In this document: positions 2,982 to 33,588 of the stretch, piece by piece
Numbering within the stretch: the first letter of the stretch is position 1
Layout of the letters: each line of letters starts with the position of its first letter
DNA from: Archangium violaceum
GTDB lineage: Bacteria > Myxococcota > Myxococcia > Myxococcales > Myxococcaceae
Length of the DNA: 64,000 nucleotides
Reading direction: 5' to 3'
NCBI RefSeq assembly: GCF_016887565.1
Contig: NZ_CP069396.1
Span: forward strand, 12,072,001 to 12,136,000
Program-made: the position numbers and the translations under genes
Notes under the pieces: model-generated
Seen by the model: only the letters and a program-made list of their open reading frames with translations
Told to the model about the DNA's origin: nothing
Database searches by the model: none

Positions 2982-4349
2982 ATGACGCACGACCCACCCG
3001 CCCCCGGAGGCAGCACGCCGCGCCCGCTCTATGGCGAGGAGCTCGCGCCGGGTGCGCGCGTGGGGGGATTCCTCGTCGAGGAGGTGCGGCACCGGGGCGT
3101 GGTGGCGGTGCTCTACCGGGCGCGAGACGAGCGGAGCGGCGCGTCCGTGGCGCTCAAGGTGATGAGGCCGCAGTACGCCTCGTCCGAGAACGCGCTGCGC
3201 CGCTTCGAGCAGGAGTGCCGGACGCTGGAGCAGCTCGCCCATCCGCACATCGTCCGGGTGCTGGAGTCGGGCGAGCTGCGCGATGGCCGGCCCTGGCTGG
3301 CGATGGAGTGGTTGGAGGGCAGGGACCTGGAGGCGGAGCTGGCCGCGCGAGGCCCCTTCCCACCCCGCGAGGCGCTCCGGGTGCTGGAGCCGGTGGCCGC
3401 CGCGCTGGGCGCCGCGCACGCGCTCGGCATCGTCCACCGGGACATCAAGGCGCAGAACGTGATGGTGCGTCCGGGGGCGGGAGGAGCGCCGCACGTGACG
3501 CTGGTGGACTTCGGCATCGCCAAGCTGTTGGACCCGGGCCACCGGAGCCTCGCGCTGACGAGCACCGGGGTGACGGTGGGCACGCCGGTGGCGATGGCGC
3601 CCGAGCAGATTCTCGGAGCCCCGGTGGACGCGCGCACGGACCTGTACGGGCTCGGGGTGCTGCTCCACCAGCTGCTCACCGGCCGGCTCCCCTTCAGCGC
3701 TGGCAGTCAGGCCGAGCTGGAGGAGCTGCACCTGCACGCGCCACCGCCCTCGCCCTCGCACCTCGCCCCGGTGCCCACGGCGCTGGACGCGGTGGTGAAG
3801 CGCTGCCTCGCCAAGCGCCCCGAGGACCGCTACCCGGACACGGCGGCGCTGATGGAGGACCTGCGCCGCGCGCTCGAACCCTCGGCGGGGCCGGGGGGCC
3901 GGACACGGGGCCTGGGCCTCTACCTGTGCGCCCGTCCCGAGGCCGGCGAGGACGCGGACGACGACGCGCTCGATGCGCTGGACCGGGTGCTGGACGCCGC
4001 GCGGGAGGGACTGTCCCGGTGCGGGCTGGCCCTCATGGTGGAGGGAGCGGACTTCCTGCTGGCCGCCACGCCCCTGCCCCCGGACGCGAGTGCCTCGCGG
4101 GCACGGCGGCGCGAGGTGCTGGAGGCGCTCGACGCGCTCTGGCCGGAGTTGGAGCGGCACGTGGCCGGCGCGGGCATCCACCTCGAGGCCACGCTGCACC
4201 TGGCCGAGGCGGTGGTGGAACCGGACGCGTCCGGCGCGCCGCGCGTGGTGGACGGGCCGCTGCTGCGCGAGAGCGGCTGGACGCGGGGCGCCGGACGGCC
4301 CGGCGTCTTCGTCCCCCCCGAGGTGCTGGAGGGACTCACCACTCGATGA
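2982..4349 (+). CDS. Eukaryote-like Ser/Thr protein kinase with extra C-terminal domain
   Basis: Residues 28-290 form a Hanks-type kinase: VALKV with the ATP-site Lys at 59, HRDIKAQN with catalytic Asp 154, DFGIA with Asp 176, and an APE-like MAPEQ in the activation segment. The glycine loop is weak (VRHRGVVAV), lacking the usual GxGxxG. There is no obvious membrane segment, so it is probably cytoplasmic. Residues about 305-455 form a second domain; phrases such as LYLCARPE, GADFLLAATP and GVFVPPEVLEGL recall a degenerate class III nucleotide-cyclase-type domain, but the metal aspartates are not obvious and this is inference. The 3' end overlaps the convergent DUF2378 gene by 14 bases. Confidence 0.9.
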   Translation: MTHDPPAPGGSTPRPLYGEELAPGARVGGFLVEEVRHRGVVAVLYRARDERSGASVALKVMRPQYASSENALRRFEQECRTLEQLAHPHIVRVLESGELRDGRPWLAMEWLEGRDLEAELAARGPFPPREALRVLEPVAAALGAAHALGIVHRDIKAQNVMVRPGAGGAPHVTLVDFGIAKLLDPGHRSLALTSTGVTVGTPVAMAPEQILGAPVDARTDLYGLGVLLHQLLTGRLPFSAGSQAELEELHLHAPPPSPSHLAPVPTALDAVVKRCLAKRPEDRYPDTAALMEDLRRALEPSAGPGGRTRGLGLYLCARPEAGEDADDDALDALDRVLDAAREGLSRCGLALMVEGADFLLAATPLPPDASASRARRREVLEALDALWPELERHVAGAGIHLEATLHLAEAVVEPDASGAPRVVDGPLLRESGWTRGAGRPGVFVPPEVLEGLTTR

Positions 4350-4923
4350 GGTACTCGGCCTCGTCGAGGCCGAGCTTCTTGACCTCCACACGTCCGGGGC
4401 AGCCCACGGCCCGGAGCGCCTCCTCCAACAAGCCCTGGTGGAACTCCACGGGCTGCATGTCGCCGCGGAAGTGCAGGCGCACGCGGCGCTCGCCCAGCGC
4501 GGTGTACTCCCGCTGGCCGTAGCTCACCGCGGTGCCGTAGGCGGTGGGCGAGCTGGACAGGAGCCGCTTGGGGTCTCCCTTTCCGATGATGTTGGTGAGC
4601 GTCTTGCCCACGCTGGACTGGAAGAATCCGCCGATCGCCGCCGCGCCACAGGCTCGGATGGCGTCATCGATGGACCCGTAGCGCGGAGAGAGCAGCTCGC
4701 CCGCGCCGTAGAGCACCTTGAGGAAGTCGCGGACCGGATAGGAGAAGAAGTCCACCAGGGGCTTCTTCGCGATGGTGGCGCGCAGCTCCGTCGACGTCTT
4801 TTCTCCGAGATGCTGGGCCACCAGCTTGAAGACGGCGTTGAAGATGAGACCGCGGACGGTGGCGCCCTCGGGGGCGGCCCCCATCCGCTGCTCGAGTTCC
4901 TGGACGACGGCGGGAGAAGGCAT
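4336..4923 (-). CDS. DUF2378 (TIGR02265) family protein
   Basis: A 195-residue soluble protein matching the myxobacterial paralogous family DUF2378/TIGR02265. The recognisable stretches are VRGLIFNAVFKLV near residue 23, RDFLKVLYGAGELLSPRYGS in the middle, and FRGDMQPVEFHQGLLEEAL followed by VEVKKLGLDEAEYLIEW at the C-terminus. The molecular role of this family is not established. There is no signal peptide or membrane segment. Its last codons overlap the convergent kinase gene, and the hairpin at 4354-4374 lies within its coding sequence. Upstream, 72 bases separate it from the divergent methyltransferase-like gene. Confidence 0.85.
   Translation of the reverse strand: MPSPAVVQELEQRMGAAPEGATVRGLIFNAVFKLVAQHLGEKTSTELRATIAKKPLVDFFSYPVRDFLKVLYGAGELLSPRYGSIDDAIRACGAAAIGGFFQSSVGKTLTNIIGKGDPKRLLSSSPTAYGTAVSYGQREYTALGERRVRLHFRGDMQPVEFHQGLLEEALRAVGCPGRVEVKKLGLDEAEYLIEW
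4354..4374. terminator. 9-bp perfect hairpin just after the kinase stop
   Basis: CTCGGCCTC (4354-4362) pairs perfectly with GAGGCCGAG (4366-4374) around a 3-base loop. It begins five bases after the kinase stop codon and inside the 3' coding end of the convergent DUF2378 gene. No T-tract follows, so intrinsic termination is only a suggestion. Confidence 0.4.
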
Positions 4924-4995
4924 GGGGGAGGAATTTTGACACAACCTGGGAATCAAGGGTCCCCCCCTTGGGGCCGCTCCTGCATCCACGGTAGG

Positions 4996-6036
4996 GTGGA
5001 GGTGAAGGACTCGACCGGGTACATCCTCTTGAATCCGCTCCCCCTCCGCCGTTCTCCCTCCGAGTCTCCCCCCTCCTTCGAGGCCGCGCTCTCCCACCTG
5101 GTGTCCTGGTTGGAGGCGCTGGAAAATTCCGAGCGCATCAGACTCGCCCCCCACGAGTCGGACACGCTCCAGCTCGAGGAGCTCCTGCATGCCGTGTGGT
5201 GGGCGGGGGGGAAGCCCGGGGCACCGGGCCTGGCGCGCGCCTCGCCGGAGCAGGCCCGCTTCCGCGCCGAGGCCGGGCCGCGCTTCTGGAAGAGCGCGGT
5301 GCTGCGGCGCTGCTGGGAGAAGCCTCGCGGCTACGCGGGAGACTTCCTGATGATGGAGTCGCTCTACCGGCACACGCCCGCCGGGGAGACGCCCTTCGAG
5401 CGGTGGATGGATGCCTGGGCGCTGGAGCTGCCGGGCTTCCAGGCGGTGCGCAACCGCCGGGACATCCTGAGCGCGCTGCTGCGAGAGGAGCACGCGCGAG
5501 GGGCGCGCCGGGTGATGAACGTGGCCTCGGGCTCGGCGCCGGAGCTGTCCGCGGTGGCGCGAGAGGTCTCCTTCGAGCGGGTGACGTTGCTGGACCAGGA
5601 CCAGGGCGCGCTGGACGCGGCGCTGGCCAGCTTCACGCGGGCGGGCGCGCTGCCGGCCACGCGGCACGAGGCGCTGCGGCTGTGGTGCGGCTCGGTGCTG
5701 GAGCTGCTGCGCAACCGCAGCGAGCTGGCGCCGGGCACGCAGGACTTCATCTACTCCATCGGGCTCTACGACTACCTCACGGAGCGCTTCGCCCGGGGCC
5801 TCACCACGAAGCTGTGGAACGGGATTGCGCCGGGCGGGCTGCTGGTGCTGGGCAACTTCAACGGGCACAACCCGATGCACCACTTCACCGAGAGCGCGCT
5901 GGACTGGTACCTCATCTACCGCGACCCCGAGGACATGCTGCGGTTGGTGGAGGGGCTGCCCGGGGTGGAGCGCGCGGAGGTGCGGACCGAGGACACCGGC
6001 TGCCTGCACCTGCTGGTGGCGCGCAAGGCCGGGTAG
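4996..6036 (+). CDS. SAM-dependent methyltransferase-like protein (PhcB-like)
   Basis: About 335-346 residues. The segment KPRGYAGDFLMMESLYRHTP is characteristic of a proteobacterial methyltransferase group that includes PhcB-type enzymes. It is followed by a Rossmann-type methyltransferase core: NVASGSAPEL (SAM glycine loop), TLLDQDQGALDAA (acidic end of strand 2), DFIYSIGLYDYL and GGLLVLGNFN. The substrate cannot be deduced. The start is uncertain: in-frame GTG codons occur at 4996 and 5002 and a TTG at 5029, none with a well-spaced ribosome site, and a TAGGGT -10-like element at 4992-4997 would favour a later start. It is divergent from the DUF2378 gene and ends 6 bases before the convergent PilZ gene. 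Confidence 0.75.
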   Translation: MEVKDSTGYILLNPLPLRRSPSESPPSFEAALSHLVSWLEALENSERIRLAPHESDTLQLEELLHAVWWAGGKPGAPGLARASPEQARFRAEAGPRFWKSAVLRRCWEKPRGYAGDFLMMESLYRHTPAGETPFERWMDAWALELPGFQAVRNRRDILSALLREEHARGARRVMNVASGSAPELSAVAREVSFERVTLLDQDQGALDAALASFTRAGALPATRHEALRLWCGSVLELLRNRSELAPGTQDFIYSIGLYDYLTERFARGLTTKLWNGIAPGGLLVLGNFNGHNPMHHFTESALDWYLIYRDPEDMLRLVEGLPGVERAEVRTEDTGCLHLLVARKAG

Positions 6037-6042
6037 CGGCGC

Positions 6043-6393
6043 TCAGAAGAGCTGCTCGGGGTCCTCATGGGGCCCCGGGTCCTGGCCGGCGAGCTCCACC
6101 AGGGGCGCGTCGTCGATGAGGTAGGGCTCGAAGTCGGCGGCGACGGCGAACCACGGGCCCACCGGGCGGGTGCGCACCACGCTGAAGGTCTGCGGGGAGC
6201 GTCCGAGCCAGGGCAGGTGGACCTCGACGCGCTCGCCGGGCCGCATCGCCACGGGCGTGACGAAGAGACAGCCGGAGCGGGAGATGTTGAAGATCTCCGC
6301 CGCCACCTCCGCGTCTCCGCGGAGGAACTGGATGCGCAGACGCACGCGGTGACGGGGGTAACGACGGCGCTCGGGACCGCTCAGGATGCTCAC
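6043..6393 (-). CDS. PilZ domain protein
   Basis: A 116-residue single-domain PilZ protein, a family that often binds cyclic-di-GMP. The RxxxR motif is in ERRRYPRHRVRL (residues 8-19) and the second motif reads NISRSGCLF (about 37-45), fitting the (D/N)xSxxG consensus. The rest is beta-strand rich (RVEVHLPWLG, FSVVRTRPVG). It is probably a cytoplasmic adaptor. It lies downstream of the FHA/sigma54 activator on the same strand with 73 bases between them, and a TAGGCT hexamer at 6426-6431 could be its own -10 element. Confidence 0.85.
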   Translation of the reverse strand: MSILSGPERRRYPRHRVRLRIQFLRGDAEVAAEIFNISRSGCLFVTPVAMRPGERVEVHLPWLGRSPQTFSVVRTRPVGPWFAVAADFEPYLIDDAPLVELAGQDPGPHEDPEQLF

Positions 6394-6466
6394 GACGACT
6401 CCCCTGGCTGCGAACTTCCCCCAGCAGCCTAGCCAACCTCGGGGCGGGTGTCGCCCCCTGCCCGGC

Positions 6467-7846
<1,380 letters not shown>

Positions 7847-7987
7847 CGCCGGAAAGGTAGCACGGGCCCTCGCGTGCGAGCGGCCGGGCCCTCGGGTTCC
7901 ATGCTGGCCCTTCTGCCCGAGGTGCAAGCCGACAGCGGGATGGGACGTGGCGGCGCGTGACTAGCTTTGGGTGCGAGGAGGAGTGGC

Positions 7988-9085
7988 ATGGAACGTTCGA
8001 CCCGACGCATCCTCACGGGGGTGGGAGTGGGGCTTCCACTCATGGCCCTGGGCGCCCGGCTGTGGAGCAGCCAGGGCACCACGCCGCCCATCCAGGAGGG
8101 ACGGGGCGGAGGCCTGTCCGACGGCATCGCGTCGCTGGAGCCGGTGCGACTTGGGGGAGTGGACCAGTGGCTGTTGATGCGCGGGCGGAGCATCCACAAC
8201 CCGCTGCTGCTCTTCCTGTCGGGAGGCCCTGGGGGCTCGGAGATGGCCTGGGTGCGCCACTTCAACGCGGAGCTGGAGGAGCACTTCGTGGTGGTGCAGT
8301 GGGACCAGCGCGGCGCGGCCAAATCATACGCCGCGTTGAAGGACCGGGACGCGCTCACGCTGGACCAGTTCGTCTCGGACGCGAGCGAGCTGCTCGAGCT
8401 GCTGACCACCCGCTTCTCGCAGGACAAGGTGTTCCTCGTGGGCCACTCGTGGGGGAGCATCCTGGGGGTGCTGCTGGCCCAGCGCCGTCCCGAGCGAATC
8501 CACGCCTACGTGGGTACGGGCCAGCAGGTGAACTTCCTGGAGAACGACACCGTCAGCCACCTGCGCGCATACGAGCTGGCGATGAGGTACGACGACAACC
8601 AGGCGCTCGCGAAGCTGGCGAGCATCGGTCCGCCGCCCTACACGGGCCCGGACATGGCGAAGCGGTACATGACGCTCATGTCGCTCGCGAGTCGGCATGC
8701 GGGCCGCCGGAGCATCGTACCCGAGCTGCTCTCCTCCATCCTGAAGGCGCCCGAGTACTCACTGAGGGACAAGGTGCACCTGTTCCTGGGGCTGAGGGAC
8801 ACATTCCCACTGGTGTACCCGCAGCTGGCGGGGCTGGACCTGGCGGCGCAAGTGCCGAGACTGGAGGTGCCGGTCTGGTTCCTGCTTGGGCGAGAGGACT
8901 ACGTGACGCCGTCGGAGATCGCCGCGCGCTACCTGGAGCAGATGGAGGCACCGAGCAAGACGCTCATCTGGTTCGAGCACTCGGGACACACGCCGCAGTT
9001 CGAGGAGCCTGAGAAGTTCAACCGGGTGCTCATCCAGCAGGTGCAAGCGATGGCCGAGACGAGGTCCGAGGTCCTACTCCACTAA
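7988..9085 (+). CDS. Alpha/beta hydrolase, proline-iminopeptidase-like (S33 type)
   Basis: 365 residues from ATG 7988, with GAGGAGGAG at 7975-7983 as a strong ribosome site. The N-terminus (RRILTGVGVGLPLMALGA) is hydrophobic and may be a signal anchor. The catalytic domain shows LFLSGGPGG (oxyanion-hole loop, SGGPGG instead of the usual HGGPG), VVQWDQRGAAKS, the nucleophile elbow GHSWGS, the acid in LLGREDYVTP and the base in FEHSGHTPQFEEP. These match alpha/beta hydrolases of the prolyl aminopeptidase group, although the true substrate may not be a peptide. A TAGCTT -10-like element lies at 7962-7967. It is divergent from the FHA regulator. Confidence 0.88.
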   Translation: MERSTRRILTGVGVGLPLMALGARLWSSQGTTPPIQEGRGGGLSDGIASLEPVRLGGVDQWLLMRGRSIHNPLLLFLSGGPGGSEMAWVRHFNAELEEHFVVVQWDQRGAAKSYAALKDRDALTLDQFVSDASELLELLTTRFSQDKVFLVGHSWGSILGVLLAQRRPERIHAYVGTGQQVNFLENDTVSHLRAYELAMRYDDNQALAKLASIGPPPYTGPDMAKRYMTLMSLASRHAGRRSIVPELLSSILKAPEYSLRDKVHLFLGLRDTFPLVYPQLAGLDLAAQVPRLEVPVWFLLGREDYVTPSEIAARYLEQMEAPSKTLIWFEHSGHTPQFEEPEKFNRVLIQQVQAMAETRSEVLLH

Positions 9086-26614: not shown

Positions 26615-26635
26615 GCGCCCCGGTGGTGGGGCTCA
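26612..26635. terminator. Bidirectional hairpin containing both stop codons (fumarase / unknown gene)
   Basis: TGAGC (26612-26616) pairs with GCTCA (26631-26635), and CCC/GGG inside extends the stem with a bulged G. The fumarase TGA and the convergent gene's TGA are in opposite arms, as in the hairpin after ligA. Confidence 0.5.
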
Positions 26636-27028
26636 GTGCTTGAGCCCCGCCACGTGCGTGGTGGTGGGCAGGTTCTCCAGCCCGTGGGCGAGCTGGAAGG
26701 TGTAGCGCACGCGGGGCGCCGACTTGAGGCCCCCCATCACCTTGAAGAGGAAGTAGCCGCGCTCCACGTTGTCCGGGTCCGGCGTCACCTGCACCTGGAG
26801 CAGGTCCGTGGTGTCGAGCACCATCTCCCCCACCAGCCGCTTGCCCAGGATGAGTTGCACCACGGGCGTGCCGTTCTCCTCCGAGAAGAGCACCCAGTGG
26901 AGCGCCTCGGCGTCGTAGAGCCAGGAATCCTCGGTCCCGATGCTGAGGATGCAGTTGGTGTGGTCCAGGATCCAGTCCCAGAAGCGCTCGAAGGGGAGTG
27001 TTGCCCCCGTCTCTGTCTCAATCGCCAT
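26633..27028 (-). CDS. Conserved-looking small protein of unknown function
   Basis: 131 residues from ATG 27028. It is acidic and soluble, with TLPFERFWDWILDHTNCIL near the N-terminus, a strand-rich centre (VVQLILGKRLVGEMVLDTTD) and YFLFKVMGGLKSAPRVRYTF towards the end. Codon use is that of its neighbours, so it is probably a real gene. No family is recognised. It sits 50 bases downstream of a hybrid histidine kinase on the same strand and could be the last member of that transcription unit. Confidence 0.65.
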   Translation of the reverse strand: MAIETETGATLPFERFWDWILDHTNCILSIGTEDSWLYDAEALHWVLFSEENGTPVVQLILGKRLVGEMVLDTTDLLQVQVTPDPDNVERGYFLFKVMGGLKSAPRVRYTFQLAHGLENLPTTTHVAGLKH

Positions 27029-27078: not shown

Positions 27079-28989
27079 CTACCCGGGCAGTCGCTCCAGC
27101 AGCTGCTCCAGCTCGTCCGGCTTCACGGGCTTCACCATGTGCAGATTGAAGCCCGCCTCCGTCGCCTGCGTCCGGTGCTCGCCGCTGTAGCCCGTCAGCG
27201 CCACCAGGAAGACGTCGCCGCCACCCTCGCTCTCGCGGATCTTCCGCGCCACCTGGAAGCCATCCATCCCCGGCAGCCCCAGGTCCACCAGCGCGACATG
27301 CGGCCTCAGCGAGGGGAAGAGCGCCACGCCCTTGAAGCCGTCCTCCGCCACCTGCACCTCGTGCCCCCACATCTCCAGCAACTCCCGGAGCACCTCGCGC
27401 GTGTCCTCGTTGTCCTCCACCAGCAACACCCGCCGCGACGAGGGCTCCTCGGGGTTCGCCGTCCTCACCTCGGGCTCGGGCGCGGCCACCACCTGCTCCG
27501 CTCCCAGCGGCAGGCGCACCACGAACTCACTGCCCCGGCCCTCGCCCTCGCTGTGCACCGACACCTCGCCGCCGTGCAGCTGCACCAGCCGCCGCACCAG
27601 CGTCAGTCCGATGCCCAGTCCACCCCGGGACCTGTCCAGCTGCTGCTGCGCCTGGACGAAGAGCTCGAAGACGCGCGCCATCAGCTCCGGGCTCATGCCG
27701 ATGCCCGTGTCGCGCACGCGCAGCACCGCCTCGCGCCCCTGAGCGCCCCGCTCCACCGTCACCCCGATGAAGACGTGGCCTCCGGGCTCGGTGTACTTCC
27801 TCGCGTTGTCCAGCAGGTTGGAGACCACCTGCTCCAGCCGCGTGGCATCCCCGTTCAGCCACAGGCTCTCCGAGGCGGTGGGCAGCGCCACCTCCAGCCC
27901 CAGCTCCTTCTCCTCGAAGGCCCGCCGGCGCGCCTCCACGCTGTGATGCACCACCTGCCGCAGGTCCACCGGCGCCCGCCGCAGCTCGATGTGGCCCCGG
28001 TTGAAGCGCGACACGTCCAGCAGGTCGTCCACCATCCGCGCCATGTGCTGGCTCTGCCGCACCATCACCCGCATCGCCTTGGACTCGGCGCCCTCCAGCT
28101 GCGTGGCCTCCGCCAGGTGCAGTGCGTTGACGATGGCCGCCAGGGGGTTGCGCAGCTCGTGCGCCAGCATCGCCAGGAACTCGTCCTTGCGCCGATCCGC
28201 CTCCGCCAGGTCCGCCGCCCGCTGCCGCAGCGCGTCCTCCAGCTCGCGGCGGGGAGTGATGTCCGTGAGGACGCGCACCGCCCCCACCACCGTGCCCTCC
28301 TCTCCCTCCACCGGGTTGGCCGCCACGCGGAACCAGCGCGTCCCCAGACACGCCTCCGTCTCCTCGCGGCATGTGAGCAGCCCCCCACAGCTCGGGGGCA
28401 GCTCCGCCTCGGAGTCAGCCGCGGCCCGCATCAGCGCGTCGAAGGGATGCCCCAGCACCTGTCCCTCGGGCAGTCCCAGCAGTGCCACGAAGGCCCGATT
28501 GGCGCGCATCACCCGCCCCCTGGGGTCCAACAGGCACACCCCGTCCCCCAGCGAGTCGAAGGTCGTCTTCCACTGCAGCGCCGCCGCGCGCGCGTCCTCC
28601 TCCGCCCGGCGCATGCGCAGCAGCGAGCGCACCGTGGCCAGCAGCTCCGCCGAGTCCACCGGCTGCGTCAGGTAGCCGTCCGCGCCGCTCTCCAACCCCT
28701 CCACCTTGTTCTCGGTGCGGATGTAGTTGGCCGACAGGTGCAGCACCGCCATGCCCGCCGTGCGCGGGTCCGCCTTCAGCCGCCGGCACACCTCGATGCC
28801 GTTGAGGTCCGGCAGCTTCACGTCGAGGATGACCAGGTCCGGCCGCGACTCGAGCGACAGCCGCAGCGCCTCCGCGCCGGTGCCTCCCTCCAATACCTGG
28901 AAGCCCGCCGCCCGCAGCATGCGCGTGACGGCATAGCGGTTGGCCTCGTTGTCGTTGATGTTGAGGAGGATGGATTCCCTATGAGACAC
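27079..28989 (-). CDS. Hybrid histidine kinase (REC-PAS-HisKA-HATPase-REC)
   Basis: 636 residues, no membrane segment. An N-terminal receiver domain (LLNINDNEANRYAVTRMLRA, phospho-Asp in LVILDVKLP, about residue 56) is followed by a PAS domain (about 135-245: FDSLGDGVCLLDPRGRVMRA). The dimerisation domain carries the phospho-His in FLAMLAHELRNPLAAI, the ATPase has N-box LLDNARKYTEPGG, DTGIGMS and GGLGIGLTLV, and a C-terminal receiver has RVLLVEDNEDTREVL and Asp in ALVDLGLPGMDG. A receiver at both ends implies input from another kinase and an internal relay. It lies 44 bases after the histidine kinase that ends the Rsb-like operon. Confidence 0.93.
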   Translation of the reverse strand: MSHRESILLNINDNEANRYAVTRMLRAAGFQVLEGGTGAEALRLSLESRPDLVILDVKLPDLNGIEVCRRLKADPRTAGMAVLHLSANYIRTENKVEGLESGADGYLTQPVDSAELLATVRSLLRMRRAEEDARAAALQWKTTFDSLGDGVCLLDPRGRVMRANRAFVALLGLPEGQVLGHPFDALMRAAADSEAELPPSCGGLLTCREETEACLGTRWFRVAANPVEGEEGTVVGAVRVLTDITPRRELEDALRQRAADLAEADRRKDEFLAMLAHELRNPLAAIVNALHLAEATQLEGAESKAMRVMVRQSQHMARMVDDLLDVSRFNRGHIELRRAPVDLRQVVHHSVEARRRAFEEKELGLEVALPTASESLWLNGDATRLEQVVSNLLDNARKYTEPGGHVFIGVTVERGAQGREAVLRVRDTGIGMSPELMARVFELFVQAQQQLDRSRGGLGIGLTLVRRLVQLHGGEVSVHSEGEGRGSEFVVRLPLGAEQVVAAPEPEVRTANPEEPSSRRVLLVEDNEDTREVLRELLEMWGHEVQVAEDGFKGVALFPSLRPHVALVDLGLPGMDGFQVARKIRESEGGGDVFLVALTGYSGEHRTQATEAGFNLHMVKPVKPDELEQLLERLPG

Positions 28990-29033
28990 GCGGCGGTCCC
29001 CTCAAAGGCTCGGTCAGCTGGGATGGAAGAACC

Positions 29034-30797
29034 TCAGGGTTGGCGTCCCGAGCTGGACAGCGCCCGTTGGATGAGCTCGAGCGCCACCTCCCGGGTGAGC
29101 CCACTCTTGGAGAGGATGCCCACGACATGGGGAAGGAGACGCCCGCGCTCCTGCTCGGTCAACGAGCGGCTGGTATGGATGATGACGGGAATCTGCCGGG
29201 TGGCGGGCTCGCGCCGGAGCGCCTCGAGCACCTCGAAACCGTCCATCCCTGGGAGCGACATGTCCAGGAGGATGGCGGCGGGCCGCACCTCATTGGCCAG
29301 ACGCAGCCCCTCCGGACCCGTCGCGGCCTCGTGGAACTGGAGCGAGGCCTCCACCAGCAGTCGCTGGAGCAGGTAGCGGGCGACCTCGTCGTCGTCGATG
29401 ATGAGAACCGTACGGGCATGCGTGGAATCACGCTCCAACGTCTGGGAGGAGCCCTCCTCTTCCCCCGTGGTCTTCTGACGCTGGGTGTAGTCGCGAGACA
29501 CCGCCGCGTGGAAGGTGCTGCCCTGGCCCGGCTGGCTGTCGACGGTGAGCGAGCCGCCCAGCAGCTCCGCCAGCCGCCGTGACAGCGGCAGGCCCAGGCC
29601 CGTGCCCTTGACCCCCTGCTGGTGGGGGCCCTCCACCTGCACGAACTCCTCGAAGATGCGCTCCTGGTCCTCTGGGGCGATGCCCACCCCCGTGTCCCGC
29701 ACGGAGAACACCACCGTGTCGTTGGGGCCGGAAGCCACCGAGACCCGCACCTCGCCCCGCGGGGTGAACTTGAGCGCGTTGGAGACGAGGTTGCGCAATA
29801 TCTGCGACAGCTTGCGCTCGTCGGTGTGCAGCTCCGGCAGGCCCTGCGGCTCCTCGAAGAGGAGCGAGACGCCCTCGTGCACGCGCAGCGGCCGGAGCAT
29901 CCCGCGCAGCGCGCCGAACAGCTCCGCCACGGAGAAGCGCGTGGGCAGCACCTCCACCCGGCCGGACTCTATCTTCGCCAGGTCGAGCAGGTCGTCGATG
30001 AGCTCCTGCAGCGCCTCGCCGGACTTGCGGATGAAGAGGACCTGCTTCTCCTGCTCCATGTTGAGCGGCCCATCGATGCGGTCCAGCATCAGCCGCGACA
30101 GGTTGAGCACGGAGCTGATGGGCGTGCGCAGCTCGTGGCTGACGTTGGAGATGAAACGCGTCTTCATGTCCGAGGCCCGGCGCAGCGCCTCGGCCTTCTC
30201 CTCCAGCTCGGCGTAGAGGGCCACCACGCCGCGGTTGGTCTCCTCCAGCTCGCGGTTGAGCCGGTCCACCTCGGCCTTGCGCGCCTGCAACTCCTCCAGG
30301 ATGCGCAGCAGGTCCGCGTTCTGTTTCTGCAGCTCGTCCGTGGCGCTGGAGCGCCGCTGTCGCTCCAGCTCGGCCCGGAGCGCCAGCACGGCCTGGGGAG
30401 CCGGCGTGGTGCGCGGAAGGTTCTGGGCCATCTCCAGTACGAACTGGCCCTCCCCATCCGGCCGCAGGGCCATCCGGTCCATCAGCCGCTGCGCGGGAGC
30501 GAGCGCGGGCCCCGGCCGGAGCGTGTCCGGCGTCCTGCCCATGACGAGTCCCTCGTTCAACGCCGAGGCCCTCACCCGCACGAGGAGGGAGGGCACCGGC
30601 ACCTCCTCCAGGAGGAACTCGATGTGTCCGTTGGAGTGGGAGGCGGCGAGCCGTGCCACCTCGGAGATGGCGGTGGCGATGCGCACCTGGTCCTGGCCGT
30701 CGAAGCCCAGGGCCTGGGCGATGTGCCGCCCACGCTGCCGGGTGTTCACCACGTCCTGTCCGGTGCGCAGCTCGGCCTGGAAGAGAGAGGAGCTCAA
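29034..30797 (-). CDS. Hybrid histidine kinase with N-terminal RsbT/GHKL-like remnant
   Basis: 587 residues. The first 130 residues (GFDGQDQVRIATAISEVARL, HIEFLLEE) resemble the start of an anti-sigma-factor-type ATPase domain without its ATP-binding boxes. A coiled coil (about 150-225) leads to HisKA with phospho-His in FISNVSHELRTPISS, an ATPase (NLVSNALKFTPRG, DTGVGIAPED, GTGLGLPLSR) and a C-terminal receiver (TVLIIDDDEVARYLL, Asp in LLDMSLPGMDG). Its ATG overlaps the stop of the SpoIIE-type phosphatase gene by four bases, so it belongs to the Rsb-like operon and probably links that partner-switching module to phosphorelay signalling. Confidence 0.92.
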   Translation of the reverse strand: MSSSLFQAELRTGQDVVNTRQRGRHIAQALGFDGQDQVRIATAISEVARLAASHSNGHIEFLLEEVPVPSLLVRVRASALNEGLVMGRTPDTLRPGPALAPAQRLMDRMALRPDGEGQFVLEMAQNLPRTTPAPQAVLALRAELERQRRSSATDELQKQNADLLRILEELQARKAEVDRLNRELEETNRGVVALYAELEEKAEALRRASDMKTRFISNVSHELRTPISSVLNLSRLMLDRIDGPLNMEQEKQVLFIRKSGEALQELIDDLLDLAKIESGRVEVLPTRFSVAELFGALRGMLRPLRVHEGVSLLFEEPQGLPELHTDERKLSQILRNLVSNALKFTPRGEVRVSVASGPNDTVVFSVRDTGVGIAPEDQERIFEEFVQVEGPHQQGVKGTGLGLPLSRRLAELLGGSLTVDSQPGQGSTFHAAVSRDYTQRQKTTGEEEGSSQTLERDSTHARTVLIIDDDEVARYLLQRLLVEASLQFHEAATGPEGLRLANEVRPAAILLDMSLPGMDGFEVLEALRREPATRQIPVIIHTSRSLTEQERGRLLPHVVGILSKSGLTREVALELIQRALSSSGRQP

Positions 30798-31804
30798 CGC
30801 GAGCCTCCCCCGGAAGCCTCGCGCGCCACCAGCACGGTCGCGTCATCGCGACCCCGGGCGAAGTCCCGGTAGAGCACCCCGGCCACCAGACTGGGGTGAC
30901 GGGAGAGCAGCCCGGGGTAGCCGTCCAACCGCCACTGGGTGGCCAGTCCGTCCGAGCACATCACCAGGGAAGCCCCTGGGCTCCAGGTGTAGCTGAACTG
31001 CTGCATGCGGTGCGACTGGTGGCCCAGCGTCCCATTCATGGAAACCATCCTCTGGATGCCGCCCGGCGACACCACGGCCGCGGAGATGTTGCCCACCCCG
31101 GTGAAGTCGAGCCGTGCCCCGTCCAGCGCGGCGATGGCCACCGCCGCGCCCCGGGTGCTGTGCAGCTCCTGGTGCATGCCCCGCAGCAGCTCCACCAGCT
31201 CGTTGGGACCCTGCTCCAGGAAGGACACCACCGCCGCGCGCGAGGCCCGTGCCGCCTCGGGCCCATGGCCCAGACCATCCGACACGAGGAAGAGGAAACG
31301 GCCGTCCTTGCGGTCCACCGCCCAGGAGTCCCCGCACACCTCCTCGCCCACCTTCGGCACGCACACCACGCCCACCTCCATGCCGGAGGCCGGAGGAGGC
31401 TTGCCCGCCCACAGCTGGGCCAGCACCGCCGTGCCCACGCCGGGCACGGAGTGGATGTCGAAGACGGAGGCCATCCGCCGCATGGCGCCCAGTCCCGCGC
31501 CTCCGGTCCCGGCGGTGGAGTAGCCATCCCGCAGGCAGCGATCCACGTCCGCCATGCCCGGCCCCTTGTCCAGCGCGAGCATCTCCACGCCCACATGGGG
31601 GCCCGAGTGGAGCGTACGCAAGAGGATCAGCCCCTCGCGCGCGTGGGCGACCAGGTTCTTGGCGGCCTCGCTCACCACGATGGCGACCTTGCCCTGGGTC
31701 TCCTCGTCGAAGCCCAGGCGAGCGGCCAGCGCGGAGGCCGTCCGGCGCGCGTGGCCCGCCTGACTGCTCTCCGTGACTGCGATCGCCGTGGAGCTCACTT
31801 CCAT
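30794..31804 (-). CDS. RsbT-like ATPase fused to SpoIIE/RsbX-type phosphatase
   Basis: 336 residues from ATG 31804, overlapping the RsbT-like gene by 10 bases. The N-terminal third is an anti-sigma-type ATPase (KVAIVVSEAAKNLVAHAREG, LALDKGPGMADVDRCL, GAGLGAMRRM). The rest is a PP2C/SpoIIE phosphatase (GEEVCGDSWAV, FLFLVSDGLGHGPEAARASR, LDFTGVGNISAAVV, LVMCSDGLATQW, GRDDATVLVAR). In stressosome systems RsbX dephosphorylates RsbR/RsbS and resets the switch, which is the expected role here. Fusion to a kinase-like ATPase domain would let one protein both sense and reset. Confidence 0.9.
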   Translation of the reverse strand: MEVSSTAIAVTESSQAGHARRTASALAARLGFDEETQGKVAIVVSEAAKNLVAHAREGLILLRTLHSGPHVGVEMLALDKGPGMADVDRCLRDGYSTAGTGGAGLGAMRRMASVFDIHSVPGVGTAVLAQLWAGKPPPASGMEVGVVCVPKVGEEVCGDSWAVDRKDGRFLFLVSDGLGHGPEAARASRAAVVSFLEQGPNELVELLRGMHQELHSTRGAAVAIAALDGARLDFTGVGNISAAVVSPGGIQRMVSMNGTLGHQSHRMQQFSYTWSPGASLVMCSDGLATQWRLDGYPGLLSRHPSLVAGVLYRDFARGRDDATVLVAREASGGGSR

Positions 31805-32199
31805 CTCGTCACCGTGACCCGGGTTCCCTCCCCTACTTTGGAGACGATGTCGAACTCGTTCACCAGACGCCGAGCGCCCCCCAGCCCGAGCCCCATGCCA
31901 CCGCCCGAGGTGTACCCGTCGCGCAGCGCCAGCTCGATATCGGGAATGCCAGGGCCCCGGTCCTCGAAGGACAGGCGCAGCCCCTTGCGGAGTCCCTCCT
32001 GGACGACCTGAAGGGTCACCTCTCCGCCATTGCCATAGTCGAGGGTATTGCGCGCCAGCTCGCTGGCGGCGGTCACCATCTTCGTCTGCTCCACGAGACT
32101 GAACTTGAGCTCGGCCGACCACGTGCGCACCGCCTGGCGCACGAGCACCAGGTCCTGCGACGAGCGGATGGGCATCACCTCAGTCCTCAAGACTTGCAT
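31795..32199 (-). CDS. RsbT-like serine kinase / anti-sigma regulatory factor
   Basis: 134 residues, a single GHKL ATPase domain of the RsbT/RsbW type: N-box MVTAASELARNTLDYGNGG, DRGPGIPDIELALRDGYTS, then GGMGLGLGGARRLVNEFDI. In Bacillus, RsbT phosphorylates RsbS and RsbR in the stressosome and, once released, activates a downstream phosphatase. Start ATG 32199 lies inside the end of the RsbS-like gene (20-base overlap), a strong sign of coupled expression with fixed stoichiometry. No alternative sigma factor gene is in the window, so the output may be the histidine kinases downstream. Confidence 0.93.
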   Translation of the reverse strand: MQVLRTEVMPIRSSQDLVLVRQAVRTWSAELKFSLVEQTKMVTAASELARNTLDYGNGGEVTLQVVQEGLRKGLRLSFEDRGPGIPDIELALRDGYTSGGGMGLGLGGARRLVNEFDIVSKVGEGTRVTVTRWK

Positions 32200-32581
32200 C
32201 CGGGACCTCGGGCACGGCGTCGTCGGCTTCGATGGAAGCCTGTAGCAAGGCCATGCCCTTCTCGACGTTGAGCGCGGTGCGGATGCCCGGCAGGGACATG
32301 CCCAGCTCCACCAGGGTGATGGCCACCGCTGGCTGCATGCCCACCACCACCGTCTGCGCGTCCAGCACGCGCGACATGGTGGCGATGTTGCCCAGGATGC
32401 GGCCGATGAAGGAGTCCACGACCTCCAATGAGGAGATGTCGATGAGCACCCCGCGGGCGCCGGAATCGACGATTCTCGCGGTCAGGTCATCCTGCAGCGT
32501 CACCGCGAGCTGGTCATGCATGTCCACCTGGATGGTGACCAGCAGGACCTTGCCCATGCGGAGGATGGGAATGCGCTCCAT
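32180..32581 (-). CDS. RsbS-like STAS domain protein (stressosome antagonist)
   Basis: 133 residues, one STAS domain. IPILRMGKVLLVTIQVDMHD, DISSLEVVDSFIGRIL and VVGMQPAVAITLVELGM match RsbS, and Ser 57 in VVDSFIGRIL corresponds to the phosphorylated Ser 59 of Bacillus RsbS. It would form the stressosome core with RsbR and hold RsbT until phosphorylated. It starts 9 bases after the RsbR-like gene and overlaps the RsbT-like gene. The C-terminal 15 residues are an acidic tail (ADDAVPEVPDASLED). Confidence 0.93.
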   Translation of the reverse strand: MERIPILRMGKVLLVTIQVDMHDQLAVTLQDDLTARIVDSGARGVLIDISSLEVVDSFIGRILGNIATMSRVLDAQTVVVGMQPAVAITLVELGMSLPGIRTALNVEKGMALLQASIEADDAVPEVPDASLED

Positions 32582-32590
32582 GCGGGCACC

Positions 32591-33460
32591 CTAGACCTTG
32601 CCCGGCGCGCGCGGACCCTGGCTGCCGAGGCTCTGATTGAGACGCTTGAGGGCCCAGCTGAAGGCCCCGGCCAGGCTGGACTTGGTCACCACGCCGGCGA
32701 GGTCCACGCCCAGGTGGACGATGGTCTGGGCGATTTGAGGCCGGATGCCGCTGATGACACACTCGGCGCCCATGAGGCGGGTGGCGGTCACCGTCTTGAT
32801 GAGGTGCTGGGCGGTGAGGGTGTCCACCGTGGGCACGCCGGTGATGTCGATGATGGCGATCTCCGCGCCCGTCTCCACGATGCGCTGCAGCAGCGTCTCC
32901 ATCACCGTCTGGGTGCGCCCGCTGTCCAGCGTGCCGATGAGCGGCAGGGCGACGATGCGGTCCCACATCTGCACCACGGGGGTGGACAGCTCCAGCATCT
33001 CCTGCTGCTGGCGGACGATGACCTCCTCGCGCGTGCGCTGGTGCACCTCGGTGGTGAACAGGCCCAGCTTGTCCAGCAGGACGGTGGCGCTCCACATCGC
33101 GTCGGCCACCGCCTCCGGCTGGCTGGCGAGCTCGCGGCGCAGCCGGTCGAACAGGGGCTGCTTGAGGCTGAAGATGAAGGTGGCCGTCTCGGACGGGGAG
33201 AAGCCCTGGAGGCTGCGCGAGCGTGACAGCCGCTCCAGCATGTCCCGCACGGACGCGAACCCGGAGCTGTTGATGTCGGTGAGATTGCCCTGCTCGGTCG
33301 CCTGAGTCAGCAGCCGGAGGAACTCGGCGCACTGCTCCCGCAGCTCGCCCTCCTTCAGCAGCGCGTCACGGCGTATCCCACTGGACGTCATGGCCGCGAA
33401 CCACTCGGCGATCAGCTCGGACGGGTATTTCTTGAGAATCTCGTGGATACGAGTGGTCAA
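32591..33460 (-). CDS. RsbR-type stressosome sensor (RsbRD N-domain + STAS)
   Basis: 289 residues using a TTG start at 33460, chosen because a perfect AGGAGG lies six bases upstream; a GTG at 33526 would add 22 residues without such a site. The N-terminal half (ILKKYPSELIAEWFAAM, ELREQCAEFLRLLTQAT) matches the RsbRD-type sensory domain. A linker helix leads to a C-terminal STAS domain: VVQMWDRIVALPLIGTLDS, IIDITGVPTVDTLTAQHLIK and ISGIRPQIAQTIVHLGVDL, with the phosphorylatable Thr region (TVDT) in place. It is the first gene of the rsbR-rsbS-rsbT-phosphatase-kinase operon and would collect the stress signal. Confidence 0.92.
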   Translation of the reverse strand: MTTRIHEILKKYPSELIAEWFAAMTSSGIRRDALLKEGELREQCAEFLRLLTQATEQGNLTDINSSGFASVRDMLERLSRSRSLQGFSPSETATFIFSLKQPLFDRLRRELASQPEAVADAMWSATVLLDKLGLFTTEVHQRTREEVIVRQQQEMLELSTPVVQMWDRIVALPLIGTLDSGRTQTVMETLLQRIVETGAEIAIIDITGVPTVDTLTAQHLIKTVTATRLMGAECVISGIRPQIAQTIVHLGVDLAGVVTKSSLAGAFSWALKRLNQSLGSQGPRAPGKV

Positions 33461-33588
33461 CGAATGCCTCCTGGAGACCGCGTGTAACACACGAGAGCCG
33501 GTGGTGACTGGAGCGAAAAATGCCACCCAGCCGGGGCCTCACTTCAGTGTTCAATCGGAGATAGCCACTGGGACGACGGCGAAATTCC

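Follow-up and report, generated by a model that had tools for sequence, protein, structure and literature searches.

RsbT-type domains on a switch kinase, a phosphatase and a histidine kinase: a putative stressosome-to-phosphorelay cassette in Archangium violaceum

The window analysed here is a 64,000-nucleotide stretch of the Archangium violaceum genome (12.07-12.14 Mb of a 13.2 Mb single contig). On its minus strand, from 33526 down to 27079, six genes form a single operon-like block. They encode the stressosome proteins RsbR, RsbS and RsbT, an RsbT domain fused to a phosphatase, and two hybrid histidine kinases, HK1 and HK2. HK1 begins with what sequence comparison and a structure model identify as a degenerate copy of RsbT. 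The genes are, in the order of transcription:

32591..33526, minus strand: RsbR, with a sensor domain (Pfam RsbRD_N, E 1.4e-29) and a STAS domain (E 3.7e-14)
32180..32581, minus strand: RsbS, a single STAS domain with phospho-site Ser57 and with Asp23 (solved RsbS proteins, E 1.6e-32)
31795..32199, minus strand: RsbT switch kinase (HATPase_c, E 1.9e-13; HATPase_c_2; match to SpoIIAB, E 3e-05)
30794..31804, minus strand, ATG start: RsbT domain fused to an RsbX-like PP2C phosphatase (HATPase_c_2, E 1.6e-11; SpoIIE, E 6.3e-10)
29034..30797, minus strand: HK1, a hybrid histidine kinase with a pseudo-RsbT domain, a helical linker, HisKA, HATPase_c and a receiver (REC) domain, the last three found by Pfam
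27079..28989, minus strand: HK2, a hybrid kinase of composition REC-PAS-HisKA-HATPase-REC (Pfam)

The genes are tightly packed. Overlaps of 20, 10 and 4 bases join rsbS to rsbT, rsbT to the fusion and the fusion to HK1, and gaps of 9 and 44 bases separate rsbR from rsbS and HK1 from HK2. An original prediction, made from this one sequence, had described genes that overlap or nearly touch, followed by a second hybrid kinase, and had remarked on the lack of a sigma factor or an RsbU-type target; both descriptions hold. No sigma factor, rsbV or rsbW was found among the eight locus proteins scanned (a genome-wide search for sigma factors was not made). A sigma-factor output from the neighbourhood was thus rejected, while a distant sigma target may still exist. 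No RsbU_N domain was found above the cut-off genome-wide (best E 0.39), the control search for this domain being above the cut-off in 1 of 14 genomes.

The first three proteins carry the expected features of a partner switch. RsbR matches a solved RsbR with an E-value of 1.5e-30; the extent of the match in relatives suggests that its start probably lies nearer 33463. At the position of the Thr205-type phospho-site, Thr is found in all 80 aligned rows. At the Thr171-type position, Ser is found in each of the 79 rows with a letter (80 aligned), and we assumed that this Ser stands in for Thr, so that RsbR was counted as having both sites. RsbS has Asp23 and Ser57 in 81/81 rows, Ser57 being part of one of the two patterns by which the loci were selected. 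By these features the gene set is that of an RsbR-RsbS-RsbT (RST) stressosome module, and assembly of a megadalton RsbR-RsbS complex is predicted.

Among solved structures, the phosphatase half resembles 3zt9 most closely (E 2.8e-20), an entry deposited as SpoIIE that we take to be a Moorella protein. The next match is RsbX (3w40, E 2.4e-11). We therefore read this half as RsbX-type, not RsbU-type. Six motif positions, with metal-binding Asp residues among the PP2C features, are invariant in 76/76 rows, and the enzyme is predicted to dephosphorylate RsbR and RsbS.

The kinase core of HK1 has its key residues, His, Asn, Asp and Gly being kept in all 74 rows with letters (76 aligned), and the protein's receiver Asp is present as well. 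Its N-terminal part comprises:

30408..30797, minus strand: pseudo-RsbT domain of HK1, residues 1-130, with ATP-site residues and lid lost and an RsbW-like fold kept (alignments, AlphaFold)
30126..30344, minus strand: continuous helix in the AlphaFold model, HK1 residues 152-224, leading from the pseudo-RsbT domain into HisKA (residues 211-279)

Residues 1-135 gave no Pfam stretch at E-values up to 1, RsbU_N included, and the worn domain alone found nothing useful among the sequences of solved structures (best E 0.48). Its identity could therefore be recognised only through relatives and a fold model. In six more distant relatives (L047-L052), an intact RsbT domain stands at the same place in HK1, with 37-44% identity to the window's free RsbT (E 3e-19 to 6e-27). 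The window's copy and those of nine close relatives (L038-L046) have Leu in place of the N-box Asn; in all of them the G1 Asp is gone, the lid is deleted and the G2 glycines are lost. Pfam HATPase_c_2 was detected in 31 of the 33 members of a mixed alignment of the HK1 N-terminal domain.

An AlphaFold model of the window's domain, computed from 57 rows with intact relatives among them, has a mean predicted local distance difference test (pLDDT) score of 89.2. Its best match among solved structures is RsbW (Z 13.1, root-mean-square deviation 1.9 over 103 residues), followed by UsfX and SpoIIAB. Residues 1-130 of HK1 are thus identified, on alignment and model, as a degenerate RsbT copy with the RsbW/SpoIIAB fold of GHKL anti-sigma-type proteins. 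The worn GHKL-like start of HK1 had been anticipated in the original prediction; the intact domains of relatives refine this assignment to a copy of RsbT specifically. Having lost the residues needed for ATP use, the window's domain probably serves for docking only. The helix that follows holds 8 of the 11 invariant columns of one alignment (A2).

The arrangement is widespread. Genome contigs were searched for RsbS with a 13-row alignment, and the best 80 of at least 525 relatives were kept, a set that is not representative of all stressosomes. The loci were picked by RsbS likeness only, with no RsbT column used, and the counts outside Myxococcota rest on them. They fall in nine phyla: Cyanobacteriota (32), Pseudomonadota (25), Gemmatimonadota (7), Acidobacteriota (7), Myxococcota (3), Rokuibacteriota (2), Planctomycetota (2), Thermodesulfobacteriota (1) and Chloroflexota (1). 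Many of these loci are metagenome-assembled, and the phyla with a single locus may reflect misbinning.

All six genes occur in order in 71/80 loci, 69 recognised by script and two (L147, L163) in which HK2 sits in a longer frame. The RsbT domain of HK1 is present in 77/80; in 75 of these a kinase core follows, and two (L090, L105) are cut before it. In the other three (L109, L113, L128), the contig ends before the RsbT domain of HK1. One contig begins at the block and holds the last five genes (L103). In two loci, genes are flipped to the opposite strand, namely the fusion, HK1 and an HK2-like protein in L129 and the fusion with HK1 in L116. Where the fusion and HK1 lie on the RsbS strand (75 loci), the fusion match starts at most 150 bases from the end of rsbT in 68 and the HK1 match at most 150 bases from the end of the fusion in 69. 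The widest spacing between rsbT and the phosphatase fusion among these 75 loci, about 1.6 kb, is seen in Brasilonema (L094, 8781-10405). Because the same gene order is found in loci of nine phyla, the arrangement is more than chance. This recurrence was beyond the reach of the original prediction, based on one sequence.

Within Myxococcota, 195 genomes were searched, with at most 21 candidates scored per genome, so that the counts are lower bounds. At least 16 strong RsbT-histidine kinase fusions with frames of at least 600 residues were found, and G017 adds a seventeenth, its genes being ordered R-S-T-fusion-kinase. All 17 lie roughly 1.4-1.5 kb away from a match to RsbS. Matches with frames of at least 600 residues numbered 19; besides the 17, they comprise one phosphatase fusion (G126) and one match to the kinase core only (G109).

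The three RsbT-type copies were compared on a tree of 35 loci. Free, phosphatase-fused and kinase-fused RsbT each form one group, with Shimodaira-Hasegawa-like approximate likelihood ratio supports of 99, 91 and 97, on a tree from a quick search with few columns, five other added rows and several long branches. The copies therefore look old and inherited together. Their ATP sites, judged by the N-box Asn and G1 Asp, differ in fate: intact in 92/92 free and 88/88 phosphatase-fused copies, the site is lost in 30 of the 87 kinase-fused copies. Of the 30 worn copies, ten belong to the family of the window (its own genus and g6) and sixteen to Caballeronia, Paraburkholderia and Burkholderia; two are from Gemmatimonadaceae, and Desulfomonile and Massilia contribute one each. 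Three loci (L041, L050, L051) had been dropped before the domain alignment because they were taken to be from the same genomes as L089, L147 and L163. Of 88 kinase-fused rows, 87 were scored, L090 carrying too little of the domain; the copies of L116 and L129, on the opposite strand, lie outside this scoring, and L164, with Glu in place of the G1 Asp, was counted as intact.

On a tree of the histidine kinase core, from which the RsbT columns were left out (83 rows, 55 intact and 28 worn), the state of the ATP site changes five times, and four of these changes are forced by strongly supported branches. L038, L046 and L048, whose H-box pattern was unmatched, and the cut L090 and L105 are not on this tree; L048 has HisKA by Pfam all the same. 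The count of changes does not by itself tell gain from loss, and this tree too is a quick search with several long branches. We read the changes as losses because the free and the phosphatase-fused copies are all intact. On this reading of the alignments, the ATP site was lost repeatedly, in the kinase-fused copy only, by four or five separate changes. One intact copy, L047, is the sister of the window's worn group.

Repeated loss could mean that the worn domain is a vestige and that HK1 and HK2 act independently of the adjoining stressosome genes. For the worn domain, the ratio of nonsynonymous to synonymous substitution rates (dN/dS) is 0.26-0.59 over five pairs, which is indeed above that of RsbT (0.08-0.12). 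These values remain below 1, and the intact phosphatase half, taken for comparison, gives 0.28-0.40. Moreover, the domain is retained after each loss of the ATP site, two of its residues (R20 and E46, see below) are found in 30/30 worn rows, and in every one of the 77 loci where the contig extends far enough, the RsbT-kinase fusion lies next to RST. In L116 and L129, the phosphatase fusion and HK1 are flipped together. Taken with these observations, we consider a vestige very improbable, the least likely of the alternatives weighed here.

What the domain would bind is suggested by its most conserved residues. Among its 130 columns, only two are invariant across all 267 RsbT-type domain copies:

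30738..30740, minus strand: codon of HK1 Arg20 (R20), invariant in 267/267; SpoIIAB Arg20 in the alignment of the window's RsbT with SpoIIAB, RsbW Arg23 by offset
30660..30662, minus strand: codon of HK1 Glu46 (E46), invariant in 267/267; SpoIIAB Glu46 in an alignment with SpoIIAB, RsbW Glu49 by offset

The correspondence with RsbW was obtained from the +3 offset with which the structural alignment begins and from the equal spacing of 26, and is not residue-by-residue. In crystals of RsbV-RsbW, RsbW Arg23 and Glu49 are described as hydrogen-bonding Asp23 and the phospho-site Ser56 of RsbV (PMC7340262). In the 30 worn HK1 domains, considering invariant positions only, R20 and E46 are joined by F61, A102 and L105. 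A hexagonal RsbV-RsbW crystal form is reported to contain no ADP, its nucleotide loop not being visible (PMC7340262); a GHKL domain without nucleotide can therefore bind a STAS protein.

The original prediction took HK1 to be a direct partner of the switch. Comparison supports this well, and shifts the likelier partner from RsbT to RsbS/RsbR, because the residues that are never lost are the counterparts of STAS-contact residues. Docking of HK1 on RsbS/RsbR through its RsbT-like domain is the best-supported mechanism, and one that the conserved residues and the analogy with RsbV-RsbW render fairly probable. The simplest account is that three enzymes use one docking fold and one docking surface.

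Alternatively, the RsbT-like domain of HK1 may pair with free RsbT, as a heterodimer through beta1 and alpha1, so that RsbT released from the stressosome activates HK1 as it does RsbU. RsbW is described to dimerise via alpha1 and beta1 (PMC7340262), and both elements are present in the model of the HK1 domain. Likewise, RsbT is described to activate RsbU by ordering of its linker helices (PMC12143880), and HK1 has its continuous helix into HisKA. The two universally invariant residues nonetheless correspond to contacts with STAS, and RsbU_N, the known RsbT-binding module, was absent from the scans of HK1 and of the genome. While both observations are compatible with an RsbT pair, they make it rather unlikely in our view. 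We give still less credit to a third scenario, in which HK1, or the pseudo-RsbT domain within it, would be a transient phosphorylation target of RsbT and no stable docking would take place. Such a mode has been proposed for stressosome-linked kinases without RsbU_N (PMC9237108), but in cases where no docking domain had been detected, whereas HK1 has a docking-type domain. In addition, no Ser or Thr is invariant across the 30 rows of the worn domain.

Downstream of docking on the STAS proteins, the first receiver of HK2 is probably the next relay step. Its Asp is present in 71/71 rows, whereas the Asp of HK1's own receiver is found in 47/76, the rest being gaps; HK2 is therefore favoured as the recipient, a transfer that we infer. 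Beyond HK2, 29 loci have enough flank for inspection, and 16 of them have a same-strand open reading frame, picked by length only, within 400 bases. A conserved response regulator as the final target was rejected: the ten of these 16 frames that were scanned belong to unrelated families, one of them a TetR regulator, with no receiver-output protein among them. In the window, a minus-strand open reading frame of 130 residues (26633-27025) lies 53 bases past HK2. It has no Pfam or NCBIfam match; of the nine close relatives, five (L039, L043-L046) have a frame of this kind adjoining the cassette. Elsewhere in the same genome, at 10.231-10.235 Mb (L084), a SpoIIE phosphatase, an RsbW-like kinase and two STAS proteins make up a second partner-switch module, with an isoamylase and an epimerase-like gene interspersed among its genes. 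No sigma factor was found among the ten proteins scanned there.

Altogether, we propose that the block is a self-contained stressosome-to-phosphorelay cassette in which the RsbT docking fold would be used three times. Free RsbT would be the switch kinase. The second copy would carry the resetting enzyme, an RsbX-type phosphatase, to the STAS proteins, and the third would carry the output enzyme, HK1, to the same STAS surface. In the resting state, HK1 would be held on RsbS/RsbR through its RsbT domain. Upon sensing of a signal by RsbR, free RsbT would phosphorylate the STAS proteins, and HK1 would be released or re-set. This change would pass via the continuous helix into the HisKA core and then to receiver domains, probably the first receiver of HK2, before the fused phosphatase resets the system. 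The window's copy of HK1, with ATP use lost, would act as a docking domain only. For the whole proposal, including docking, switching by RsbT phosphorylation, the direction of regulation and the relay, we estimate a probability of about 0.6.

Several points weigh against it. E46 is also the expected catalytic base, the equivalent Glu45 of Listeria RsbT having been called a potential one (PMC9237128). Its conservation therefore falls short of proving docking, particularly among the 57 intact copies, where it may be kept for catalysis. The match of R20 and E46 to RsbW contacts depends on the offset given above. The pairing of HK1 R20 with RsbS Asp23 is drawn by analogy only: RsbS was aligned with SpoIIAA and not with RsbV, so that the equivalence of RsbS Asp23 and RsbV Asp23 is assumed. 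The higher dN/dS of the worn domain relative to RsbT also fits slow decay. At the usual Lys position, the first receiver of HK2 has Gln in 34 rows, Glu in 24, other residues in 11 and gaps in 2 (n=71), with Lys in 0 of the 69 rows with a letter, and plain relay through HK2 is therefore not assured. No HK2 was seen nearby in L098 and L116. In two Myxococcota loci, L171 (G126) and L172 (G098), R-S-T and the phosphatase fusion occur with no RsbT-kinase fusion within about 9 kb; the histidine kinase part is therefore not obligatory everywhere. Finally, the selection of loci by RsbS likeness, as noted, does not represent stressosomes at large.

Comparison with known systems helps to define what is particular to the cassette. 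In common with the RsbRST-sigma B pathway of Bacillus and Listeria, it has RsbR, RsbS and RsbT, whose phospho-sites are conserved, and a phosphatase of the RsbX type. Unlike that pathway, it comes without rsbV, rsbW or a sigma factor in the eight scanned genes and without RsbU_N genome-wide, its outputs are histidine kinases, and its RsbX-like phosphatase is fused to a copy of the RsbT domain. RSTX modules of the Vibrio type, whose output is two-component or cyclic di-GMP signalling, also combine RST and an RsbX-like phosphatase with following kinase or receiver genes (PMC9237108). Their RsbX is single-domain, their RsbR is globin-coupled, and their downstream proteins have RsbU_N or no detected RsbU_N. 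Here, phosphatase and histidine kinase both carry an RsbT domain, which Vibrio D1 might also contain in hidden form.

Histidine kinases with an N-terminal RsbU_N, encoded beside rsbT (PMC12143880), resemble HK1 in having an N-terminal module tied to the stressosome. Their RsbU_N, however, binds RsbT, whereas the module of HK1 is itself RsbT-like. A locus of that design occurs in the window's own family (L053, genome G103, 3170-7989). It encodes R-S-T, a stand-alone RsbX-like phosphatase and an RsbU_N-PAS-HisKA-HATPase-REC kinase. Both docking solutions therefore occur within one bacterial family. The stressosome of Moorella thermoacetica shares a non-sigma output; there the output is described as MtG, a GGDEF diguanylate cyclase whose N-terminal domain is of the RsbU kind (PMC12143880).

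The original prediction had seen phosphorelay output as the unusual point. This does not stand, since stressosome output into two-component kinases is already published (PMC9237108, PMC12143880), and RST modules with kinase or receiver output are among the cases described (PMC9237108). In the same source, no RsbU_N was detected in the majority of the downstream signalling proteins considered, and RsbT tested against a downstream two-component protein gave no positive result. Searches of an open-access library, to which most subscription papers do not belong, turned up no account of histidine kinases with an RsbT domain, of how these decay to pseudo-kinases or of the six-gene order. Hence stressosome modules beside histidine kinases are known, while the RsbT-kinase fusion, its repeated decay and the spread of the cassette are apparently undescribed.

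We are slightly inclined to believe that these loci represent a hitherto undescribed class of stressosome that spans phyla, its kinase, its phosphatase and its histidine kinase output all docking on one STAS surface via paralogous RsbT domains, three in number. The output copy would in several lineages be a pure docking pseudo-kinase, so that the stressosome would sequester a histidine kinase directly and need neither RsbU nor a sigma pathway. To the question of how stressosomes of Gram-negative bacteria act on their output, the cassette offers a candidate answer, an RsbT domain built into the kinase. The named residues of HK1 (R20, E46) and of RsbS make docking directly testable. That loci of nine phyla share this order points to a common signalling device among cyanobacteria, Burkholderiaceae, Acidobacteriota, Gemmatimonadota and myxobacteria.

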